Of a stretch of DNA of 45,774 nucleotides, positions 4,778-15,224 are shown in pieces (position 1 is the first letter of the stretch; each line of letters opens with the position of its first letter). The stretch comes from Sulfurimonas sp. (GTDB lineage Bacteria; Campylobacterota; Campylobacteria; Campylobacterales; Sulfurimonadaceae), in the NCBI GenBank assembly GCA_024513425.1, contig JANEIH010000005.1, forward strand, positions 1-45,774, in the 5' to 3' direction. A model generated the notes under the pieces. That model was not told where the DNA came from and made no database searches. It was given only the letters and a program-made list of their open reading frames with translations. The position numbers and the translations under genes are program-made.

Positions 4778-5814
4778 CTAGAGCAACAACTGCCGCCACT
4801 GCACTTTTTCTTTGTAAAAAAAGAGGCTTTAATGATATAATAGAGAATAAAAGCCCATAACACTATGGTTGAGAACCATGTAAAAACTCCTGCCTCTTCA
4901 TTCATATGAATAAACTCTTTTACATCAACTCCTGCAAAAAGCTTGTCAAGCCCGAGTCCAAAAAGGATGGAACCGACAATGATAGCTCCAAGATAGATAG
5001 CCAACATACGAGAGCCTAACATCTTTTTAACAACTCCAATCGTTACTGTATTGGTTGCGGGTCCCGCACTCAAAAAGACAAAAGCAGCTCCTGGGCTCAC
5101 CCCTGCAAGTATTAGTCCTGCCGCAATAGGAAGTGATGCCGTTGCACAGACATACATCGGTACTGCAATCACAATCGCAATGATATATGAAAGCCAGCTA
5201 TAGGTAAGTAAAATATCACTCAAGTTTTTAGGGATGATAATGGTAATGAGTGCACCAAATATAAGTCCTACTAAAAGAGGCGAAGCAATATCTTTTAAAA
5301 GTGTACCAAAGGCATAGATTAGTGTTGATTTTATCTTAGAATCTTTCTGTTTGCTTTTACAGCTTGATATCTCCTCTTCTTCCTGCGTGAAATCTTGCAT
5401 ATTTTGTCCATAAAAATTTGCCAAAACCCCGACAACAATAGAGATGATCATAGAGGTTACAACTCTATAAAGTGTAAAAACCCAACCAAAAATACCATAA
5501 GTTGCCAAGATGGAGTCCGCCCCTGTAATAGGTGTAGAGATAAGAAAAGAGAGTATTGCTCCATTGCTTGCCCCACTCTTTTTCATCCCCGCCGCTAAAG
5601 GAATTACGCCACATGAACAGACCGGTAGGGGAATTCCAAAGAGTGTTGCTTTTATAACAGACCATAGAGAATTTTTCCCTAGATGATTTTTTATAATACT
5701 CTGGGGTACAAAAGTATGGAGTATTCCAGCAAATAAAAGTCCAAATAGAATGTAGGGTGCCATGGCATTACTTAAATTAAACAGCACTGTTAAAAAATTT
5801 GTGATTATATCCAT
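4774..5814 (-). CDS. Permease, SO_0444/UPF0718-type (probable Cu/Zn efflux)
   Basis: A 346-residue polytopic inner-membrane protein. The half repeat containing PVCSCGVIPLA (Cys66 and Cys68) and the later AGPATN block (250-255) mark the DUF318/ArsP-related permease superfamily. The C-terminus ends in a Cys-rich KKKCSGGSCCSS tail, a feature of the SO_0444 group proposed to export copper or zinc. A charged cytoplasmic loop with EEEE and several lysines lies near residues 145-163. Metal export is inferred from the family; arsenic-organic transport is the main alternative. Transcription starts from the spacer shared with the divergent Crp/Fnr gene, and the 3' end overlaps the helicase gene by 4 bp. 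Confidence 0.7.
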   Translation of the reverse strand: MDIITNFLTVLFNLSNAMAPYILFGLLFAGILHTFVPQSIIKNHLGKNSLWSVIKATLFGIPLPVCSCGVIPLAAGMKKSGASNGAILSFLISTPITGADSILATYGIFGWVFTLYRVVTSMIISIVVGVLANFYGQNMQDFTQEEEEISSCKSKQKDSKIKSTLIYAFGTLLKDIASPLLVGLIFGALITIIIPKNLSDILLTYSWLSYIIAIVIAVPMYVCATASLPIAAGLILAGVSPGAAFVFLSAGPATNTVTIGVVKKMLGSRMLAIYLGAIIVGSILFGLGLDKLFAGVDVKEFIHMNEEAGVFTWFSTIVLWAFILYYIIKASFFTKKKCSGGSCCSS

Positions 5815-6187
5815 GCTCTCTCTTTTTTATAACTATAATTGATATAACACAATTGTCATATAATAAAACTTCAAAAGAGATTATATAGAAGGGTTAGTTT
5901 AAAATAGTAAACATTTTAGGCTTGATGCTTTTTAGGTGCAATTTAAGATGAAAGTAAAACTATCTTTGCAGATAGTGGTTATATGTAAAAAATGGGCACC
6001 TGTACCGGCAAGAACTAGGAAATAATAGAAAAAGAGTAGCCAATATCATAAATATTGGTAAAAAAATGGAAAAAAAGTCCAAAAACTCACTTCAAAATTG
6101 AAAGTGAACTTTTAAAATGCTAAAATATTGAAATCAAAGAGAATCAGCTGGTTTTTTCAGAGGGTTCGATTATTATAGGAGTAGCAG
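5815..6187. other. 373-bp structured intergenic spacer
   Basis: No convincing gene is visible. Elements seen are an inverted repeat GTTTA/TAAAC (5897-5912), a distal pair AGGTGC (5934-5939) with GCACCT (5996-6001), an inner 6-bp hairpin ACTATC/GATAGT (5959-5976), a 7-bp hairpin CCAATAT/ATATTGG (6040-6058), and a pair TCACTT/AAGTGA (6087-6107). This is more pairing than a plain promoter spacer needs. It could be a long leader of the Crp/Fnr gene, a small RNA, or the remains of an insertion. No riboswitch consensus was recognised. Confidence 0.4.
5839..5852. promoter_or_regulatory. FNR-like half-symmetric site upstream of the permease
   Basis: TTGAT-ATAA-CACAA has one perfect FNR half-site (TTGAT) and a second half CACAA that matches the consensus ATCAA at three of five positions. 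It lies 25 bp upstream of the permease ATG and in the same spacer as a Crp/Fnr-family regulator gene. An operator role is inferred only. Confidence 0.25.
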
Positions 6188-14047: not shown

Positions 14048-14200
14048 ATGAGAGAAGCAATTCACTTGGGTTGTGAGAAGTGCACAAGACGCAACTATCA
14101 CACGACTAAAAATAAAAAAACTCATACTGAAAAATTTTCAGTAAGAAAATATTGTAAGTTCTGCAAAGAACATACAACACACAAAGAGATGAAACTGTAA
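14048..14200 (+). CDS. rpmG: 50S ribosomal protein L33
   Basis: A 50-residue protein beginning MREAIHLGCEKC and ending HKEMKL. The paired CEKC and CKFC motifs show the zinc-binding version of L33. It sits 45 bp after tuf, with an AAAGG Shine-Dalgarno region, in the usual tuf-rpmG-trnW-secE order. Confidence 0.95.
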   Translation: MREAIHLGCEKCTRRNYHTTKNKKTHTEKFSVRKYCKFCKEHTTHKEMKL

Positions 14201-14210
14201 GGTTTTTTTA

Positions 14211-14316
14211 AATTAAGGCACTGTTTGCTTGACCTCCTGCTGAAGGAAATCAAGCGTTAGTGCAGATGGCGGAACTGTTTTTAGTATCGTCACTATTTAG
14301 CAGGAGTGCCTTAATT
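14211..14316 (+). repeat. 106-bp inverted-repeat module between rpmG and tRNA-Trp
   Basis: The ends are perfect 12-bp inverted repeats, AATTAAGGCACT (14211-14222) and AGTGCCTTAATT (14305-14316), extended by CCTGCT (14236-14241) with AGCAGG (14299-14304). A competing hairpin uses the same GCACT (14218-14222) with AGTGC (14259-14263), reinforced by GCTTGA/TCAAGC (14227-14255). A T-run follows the right arm. TTTTTA occurs immediately on both sides. It can be read as a switching attenuator or small RNA, or as a MITE-like insertion with a 6-bp target duplication. Confidence 0.5.
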
Positions 14317-14331
14317 TTTTTACAAAAGTTT

Positions 14332-14407
14332 AGGCGTGTAGCTCCAATGGTAGAGCACCGGATTCCAAATCCGGGTGTTGGGGGTTCGAGTCCCTCCACG
14401 CCTGCCA
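14332..14407 (+). tRNA. trnW: tRNA-Trp (anticodon CCA)
   Basis: Acceptor AGGCGTG/CACGCCT, T-loop GGTTCGAGT and encoded CCA. The anticodon loop TTCCAAA gives CCA. It lies between rpmG and secE, a widespread arrangement. Confidence 0.97.
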
Positions 14408-15198: not shown

Positions 15199-15224
15199 TT
15201 TAAATTCATAAAAAAGGAAATAAA

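Follow-up and report, generated by a model that had tools for sequence, protein, structure and literature searches.

The window analysed in this study, a stretch of 45,774 nucleotides of a Campylobacterota genome whose repeat-carrying relatives are Sulfurimonas-like, contains a palindrome embedded in the gene order tuf-rpmG-palindrome-tRNA-Trp-secE-nusG-rplK. Is this palindrome a regulatory signal of the operon, or an element that has been inserted into it? A sequence-only reading had correctly placed it between rpmG (14048-14200, + strand) and the tRNA-Trp gene, trnW (14332-14407, + strand), and had proposed either a conditional terminator controlling tRNA-Trp-secE-nusG or a MITE-like insertion, neither of them explained by a known family.

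The terminal inverted repeats of the palindrome are indeed perfect, and their length is 13 bp, not the 12 bp given in that reading. The 5' arm (AAATTAAGGCACT, 14210-14222, + strand) and the 3' arm (AGTGCCTTAATTT, 14305-14317, + strand) form an outer stem, which encloses an 82-nt branched loop. The fold of the palindrome is beyond chance: the minimum for the + strand of the region 14205-14330 was -41.7 kcal/mol, vs -26.0 +/- 3.4 kcal/mol in dinucleotide shuffles (z = -4.7, 0/200). The TTTTTA motifs reported for both ends were recovered as T7A (14203-14210 and 14315-14322), which alone means little in an A+T-rich spacer. The second of two competing folds proposed for the palindrome, a hairpin of GCACT (14218-14222) with AGTGC (14259-14263), was obtained as the fold of transcript prefixes ending at 14262-14304 (-18 to -32 kcal/mol). 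Once the RNA is complete, the outer stem is favoured by 3.5 kcal/mol and the probability of the GCACT hairpin is approximately 0.2%. This hairpin is thus predicted to be a folding intermediate of the growing transcript, formed before the 3' arm is made, and not a competitor in the complete RNA.

Sixty relatives with rpmG-trnW were searched first; longer spacers were found in some congeners, and the inner part of the palindrome was matched at unrelated places. A pattern derived from these places had 106 matches among GTDB genomes, and the titles of the matching stretches were limited to Sulfurimonas, Sulfuricurvum, Sulfurovum, Sulfurospirillum, Helicobacteraceae and unclassified MAGs. Iterated nhmmer searches over the fetched loci yielded 156 distinct copies of a repeat unit of about 80-130 bases. 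Analysis with covariance model R1 (built from 65 sequences) revealed copies in at least 52 of the 60 genomes of the genus of the window (from 0 to at least 63 in each) and, across the class, in at least 36 of 249 genomes and at least 10 of 56 genera, representing four families of Campylobacterota; these counts are lower bounds, and many of the genomes are MAGs. At least 49 copies were present in a complete genome of family f20, which is probably Sulfurospirillum, as inferred from the taxon make-up of the pattern matches. None was found in the plasmid and phage records searched. A single copy, upstream of an open frame, was observed in a viral-classed contig (IMGVR_UViG_3300032212_000702; L270:5684-5764).

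Neither the window nor the good copies gave a credible match to the covariance models of Rfam 15 (4227 families) at permissive thresholds, and no prior description of the repeat was found in the open-access literature. As far as Rfam 15 and the searchable literature go, the repeat family is previously undescribed, and the view that the palindrome fits no known family holds to the same extent.

All copies share a core of approximately 80 nt, composed of a hairpin (P1), a pseudoknotted P2, a small hairpin and P3. Its elements are arranged in the order P1 palindrome, GRGC, P2 (UUYCU/AGRAA), loop GCYGA, AACCNAG, hairpin GY-GUUA-RC, G-UA and P3; the loop of P2 is engaged in a 3-bp pseudoknot, and the stem of the GUUA-loop hairpin comprises 2 bp. 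GTAG is found 5' of the P3 hairpin in most copies, and its GTA forms a bulge between pairs 49-79 and 53-78. In alignment A1, 91.3% of the cells were paired, vs 32-51% after shifting the partners by 1-3 columns; double changes numbered 373, vs 120 after shuffling. Neither pseudoknot pair 19-29 (GC 39, AU 25, GU 1) nor pair 43-48 (CG 31, UA 31, UG 3) was broken in any copy, and P2 was 98.8% paired despite its freely changing sequence. P1 was the least regular helix (74% paired), partly because MAFFT misplaces copies with different loop lengths. Mutual information, given no pairs beforehand, selected the same pairs. The covariation proposed as a test in the sequence-only reading is therefore strong at the level of the family, where it concerns a pseudoknot plus three hairpins, and not the two stems originally drawn. 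Paired columns contained 126 G.T vs 23 A.C combinations, and this excess indicates that the structure is formed on the modelled strand, as RNA or single-stranded DNA, and not as a DNA cruciform. In one of these two forms, the core may be what the propagation machinery recognises.

The window palindrome contains a diverged copy of this core (14215-14293, + strand), which R1 detected with 44 bits, vs 70-99 bits in good copies (E = 2.5e-8; the E-values of this model are rough). Its P1 has lost the right arm, the pseudoknot pair A20.C28 and the P2 pair C22.A36 are broken, and the GTAG of the repeat has become GCAG. The P2 region (14227-14255, + strand) has been re-formed as a stem of 14227-14232 with 14250-14255 plus one of 14235-14238 with 14244-14247, and the P3 hairpin is located at 14264-14294 (+ strand). 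Orthologous copies are present between rpmG and trnW in two further genomes (G007 and G011) and in the S147 bin, where they carry GGCACTAGTGCC...GGTGCC(C)TAAA; their left arm is pairable either locally (P1) or with the distal GGTGCC. The GGCACT of the 5' arm in the window corresponds to the old left arm of the P1 palindrome (GGCACTAGTGCC in these orthologues). The 3' arm is derived from the CCTT region of two further family hairpins, P4 and P5 (see below), and the equivalent position is occupied by GGTGCCCTAAATT in the three orthologues. Although blastn searches of the window genome (a 1.35-Mb draft) matched the window copy alone, the covariance model revealed two weaker ones, one before nusB (E = 2e-9) and one with E = 0.003. 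The nusB copy (L193:1501-1581; G000:C17) is a decayed version of the long form described below. Taken as a whole, the palindrome of the window is probably best explained as an old insertion, diverged and eroded, of a structured RNA-like repeat that is dispersed among the Campylobacterota.

Many Sulfurimonas copies extend by a further 45 nt or so on the 3' side, up to a Shine-Dalgarno AAGG that precedes a start codon by 7-11 nt. In 52/52 non-redundant copies of this long form, a tetranucleotide of the CCTT type lies upstream of AAGG and is able to pair with it, giving a long A+U-rich hairpin (P5); the same tetranucleotide pairs upstream in P4 (again 52/52). Since CCUU is common to both, P4 and P5 are mutually exclusive around the ribosome-binding site. 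Covariation was also observed in P5 (position 7: T-A 27, A-T 23; position 11: A-T 33, T-A 16, G-C 3), whose mean energy was -5.0 kcal/mol (range -1.1 to -10.3). The downstream genes, with names read from translated starts, form about 60 groups with no common theme (18 of them represented by two or more copies) and include dnaK, groEL, fabG, fabI, nusB, ribH, ilvC, hypA, rplL, PPIC rotamase, hom and cysK. Three long forms precede tRNA-Trp with AAGG intact (L015, L021, L100), so the module is part of the element itself, whatever gene lies downstream. Copies of f20 are devoid of the 3' module and carry an AGAGTTC..GAACTCT hairpin instead; they occur in all orientations, many of them between convergent genes. 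The 3' module would keep a downstream gene translatable after insertion within an operon; the ribosome-binding site would be closed by P5 and opened by P4.

The comparison of filled and empty sites allowed us to consider how the repeat is acquired. Two sites of G313 (S1 and S2) could be compared with relatives that share 80-97% identity in the flanking genes. At S2, the unit missing from three relatives measures exactly 90 bp (122 vs 212 bp between anchors), and at S1 a filled site of 212-225 bp compares with an empty one of 87 bp (a difference of about 125 bp); the inserted sequence at S1 is preceded by TTAAAAGTA and followed by TTAAGAGTA. One relative contains a tandem copy. The rpmG-trnW spacer is 19-54 nt long in most species of the genus and is filled in a minority; to judge by the differing copies and orientations, it has apparently been filled two or three times independently. 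The nusG-rplK spacer, empty in the window (15199-15224, + strand; 26 nt), holds the repeat in seven congeners. We read these sequence comparisons as pointing to insertion of a discrete unit, and deletions could explain part of the filled/empty differences. The movement may be old, since many copies occupy conserved orthologous positions. A target duplication (9-10 bp) was found at one site only, and a pooled test for such duplications among the G313 copies was negative (5.10 vs 4.95). Terminal inverted repeats, perfect in the window and represented by similar arms in three orthologues, are missing from most Sulfurimonas copies, and TAGASTTCTTGCA-like ends were seen on some f20 copies. The proposal of a MITE-like insertion was thus largely borne out by the dispersed related copies, the filled and empty rpmG-trnW spacers and the clean empty sites elsewhere; the repeat departs from a textbook MITE, with terminal inverted repeats missing from most copies, unproven target duplications and no tracking by a transposase. 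No autonomous transposon sharing its ends was encountered in the course of the analysis, and membership of the MITEs is unproven.

For the window copy, we envisage that a long form was inserted between rpmG and trnW, that the role of the inserted AAGG then passed to the tRNA's own TTTAGG, and that P1 decayed, its left arm now pairing with the old CCTT region to give the outer 13-bp stem. Lying between the rpmG message and tRNA-Trp, this stem would be a stable structure that transcription reads through, leaving the 5' end of the tRNA free, and would probably protect the rpmG and tRNA-Trp RNAs or help to process them, and not end transcription. Judging from the sequences compared, the window copy is most likely an old insertion working as a read-through intercistronic structure and not as a terminator, with a presumed role at trnW.

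Part of this region may also form an alternative hairpin, P5' (14308-14335, + strand), in which 14308-14319 is paired with 14324-14335 (11 bp and one mismatch) and the 3' arm includes nt 1-4 of tRNA-Trp. It appears to be a relic of the Shine-Dalgarno-hiding hairpin P5. The window and three orthologues (L008, L009, L085) have kept both the outer arms and a P5'-type hairpin of 10-12 bp, and in these four species the arm that once held AAGG now reads TTTAGG(C) and coincides with the 5' end of tRNA-Trp. P5' excludes the outer stem, so that structures holding and freeing the tRNA 5' end compete. In the predicted ensemble, this end was captured by P5' at about 50%, and 47 of 100 shuffled leaders equalled the window; capture was above chance in two orthologues only (1-2 of 100 shuffles). 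Capture of the tRNA-Trp end by P5' is a suggestion based on the four orthologues, and the predicted level is no more than that of chance for the window copy.

Among known systems, the repeat most resembles ERIC/IRU/RU-1 and NEMIS/Correia, which are likewise about 100-150 bp long, intergenic and co-transcribed, with structured RNA and a species-variable copy number; ERIC and NEMIS alter the stability of neighbouring messages (PMC2229807). These elements are characterised by terminal inverted repeats, TA target duplications and one long stem-loop (PMC2229807), whereas the repeat described here has a pseudoknotted multi-hairpin core, one-strand covariation and a portable Shine-Dalgarno switch; moreover, it is found in different bacteria and shares no sequence with them. 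The pairing of the anti-Shine-Dalgarno CCUU either upstream (P4, open) or with the Shine-Dalgarno site (P5, closed) is reminiscent of the Shine-Dalgarno-hiding platforms of riboswitches; unlike these, it is part of a dispersed repeat that precedes unrelated genes and contains no known Rfam 15 aptamer. By analogy, the repeat may work like the small structured intergenic repeats (ERIC, NEMIS), with the leader logic of translational riboswitches.

A more far-reaching reading is a transposing riboregulator, a genome-wide mobile RNA element that would spread via a structured RNA or single-stranded-DNA intermediate, without a known transposase, and give downstream genes a translation switch (core sensed, P4 open, P5 closed), wiring gene sets to one signal independently in each species. 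We give this proposal a rather low chance of being correct. A riboswitch or protein-responsive leader, with the core as the aptamer, P4/P5 as the expression platform and the copies as a regulon, is unlikely; the window copy would then attenuate trnW-secE-nusG. The conserved pseudoknotted core and the mutually exclusive P4 and P5 at the Shine-Dalgarno site fit such a leader, and the element is associated repeatedly, across several species, with certain genes (dnaK, PPIC rotamase, nusB, hom, fabG). However, the unrelated gene groups form no coherent regulon, the copy number varies from none to dozens inside one genus, the f20 copies face any direction, many of them between convergent genes, and the long-form module is retained even before a tRNA. 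An aptamer-like domain combined with a switchable platform was found in the long form only, the window copy having lost the platform.

REPs are single hairpins of about 20-40 nt with a terminal GTAG. The core of the present repeat, with 80 nt, three hairpins and a pseudoknot, does not conform to this pattern, and we conclude that the repeat is not a REP. Nevertheless, it shares with the GTAG REPs and BIMEs (PMC3733652, PMC2817692) the GTAG before a variable hairpin, the occurrence as singles, tandems and head-to-head pairs, and compensatory changes in the stems; GTAG repeats, compared here by description and not by sequence, have also been reported from Sulfurovum NBC37-1 (PMC3733652). It could accordingly be asked whether the copies are REP-type palindromes moved by a RAYT (Y1 HUH transposase), with the GTAG before P3 as the REP tag. 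This is quite improbable, as the unit is a larger composite element without RAYT linkage, and its tag belongs to a structured junction, GTA being placed between two stems (with GCAG in the window copy). Genes for Y1_Tnp were absent from complete genomes with 7-14 copies of the repeat (G030, G031, G077), no copies were present within about 1.5 kb of Y1 transposase genes, and a rank test revealed no tracking of copy number by the Y1 transposase (p = 0.20). A RAYT/IS200 link was rejected on these three grounds. The f20 genomes that were searched do contain a gene for a Y1 transposase (about 258-289 aa; Pfam Y1_Tnp), mostly in a single copy and not flanked by repeats of the family (loci L318, L320, L322-L324, L326).

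Intrinsic terminators have a G+C-rich stem, a short loop and a U-run directly after the stem. The outer stem of the palindrome is followed by a T7 run (14315-14321, + strand), and a short hairpin with a T-run occurs just before trnW in other species, e.g. in L023. For all that, there is little to recommend a conditional intrinsic terminator between rpmG and trnW: the 82-nt loop is branched, half of the T-run lies inside the stem, and terminator calling on the palindrome gave no intrinsic terminator, the T7 run being outside any called one. Furthermore, with the promoter likely upstream, tRNA-Trp, secE and nusG would need read-through and would be cut off by a strong terminator, and the structure is absent in species with spacers of 19-28 nt, some of which lack any hairpin. 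The terminator half of the sequence-only reading is consequently not supported. Species without the repeat often show an unrelated short hairpin just before tRNA-Trp, some with a T-run (L018, L022-L027, L017, L010, L035). As many repeat-free species have such a simple hairpin and some have none, structure at this position appears to be tolerated, not required.

The RNA thermometers of the fourU and ROSE types have an A+U-rich hairpin over AAGG, as does P5 with its AAGG-CCUU pairing and the energies given above, but a thermometer-like leader hiding the Shine-Dalgarno site at low temperature only is highly improbable, since P5 of the repeat is not a lone hairpin, the conserved core and the P5-less copies would be left unexplained, and there is no reading frame behind the window copy.

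The repeat is a large unannotated family new to the sulfur-living Campylobacterota (Sulfurimonas, Sulfurovum, Sulfuricurvum, Sulfurospirillum), one that combines a covariation-supported pseudoknot core with, in the long form, a portable ribosome-binding site that stands before core genes with two exclusive hairpins. Should a protein or ligand bind the core, housekeeping genes by the dozen would be wired to the repeat; if it is unbound, the repeat clearly exemplifies a selfish element that is kept harmless by the start signal for translation that it supplies. Cultured strains would allow either reading to be tested directly.

Several further arrangements of the repeat were observed. Tandem arrays of two or three copies are present in L333/L349 (G316), L223 and L239 (G036). 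In G231, each of the four rrn operons has a head-to-head repeat pair immediately upstream of 23S rRNA (L311 about 5785-5950, L312-L314); these identical copies were considered as transposon ends, which was rejected because they sit in the 16S-23S spacer. Short hairpins of approximately 20-27 nt (of the GTACCCYTTGNGGGTA type, and CTGTCGTAAGACTCTCTGTGAG) are lodged in loop tips (P2, the GUUA hairpin, P3 or P5) in many copies (L237, L235, L243, L247, L223, L044, L061, L131, L164), and are either insertions within the insertion or loop modules that can be exchanged. Many f20 copies are preceded by a separate hairpin, TAGACTTCTTGCAAAA..TTTTGCAAGAAGT, which constitutes a second repeat family (L282, L283, L292, L299), and a similar one stands alone at site S2 of another species (L354). 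Finally, in the nusG-rplK spacer of L012, L008, L009 and L013, the repeat is adjoined by a palindrome, AACTACGCTAAGG...CCTTAGCGTAGTT, built from the CGTTAG/CTACG core of the repeat, which is perhaps a derived half-element.
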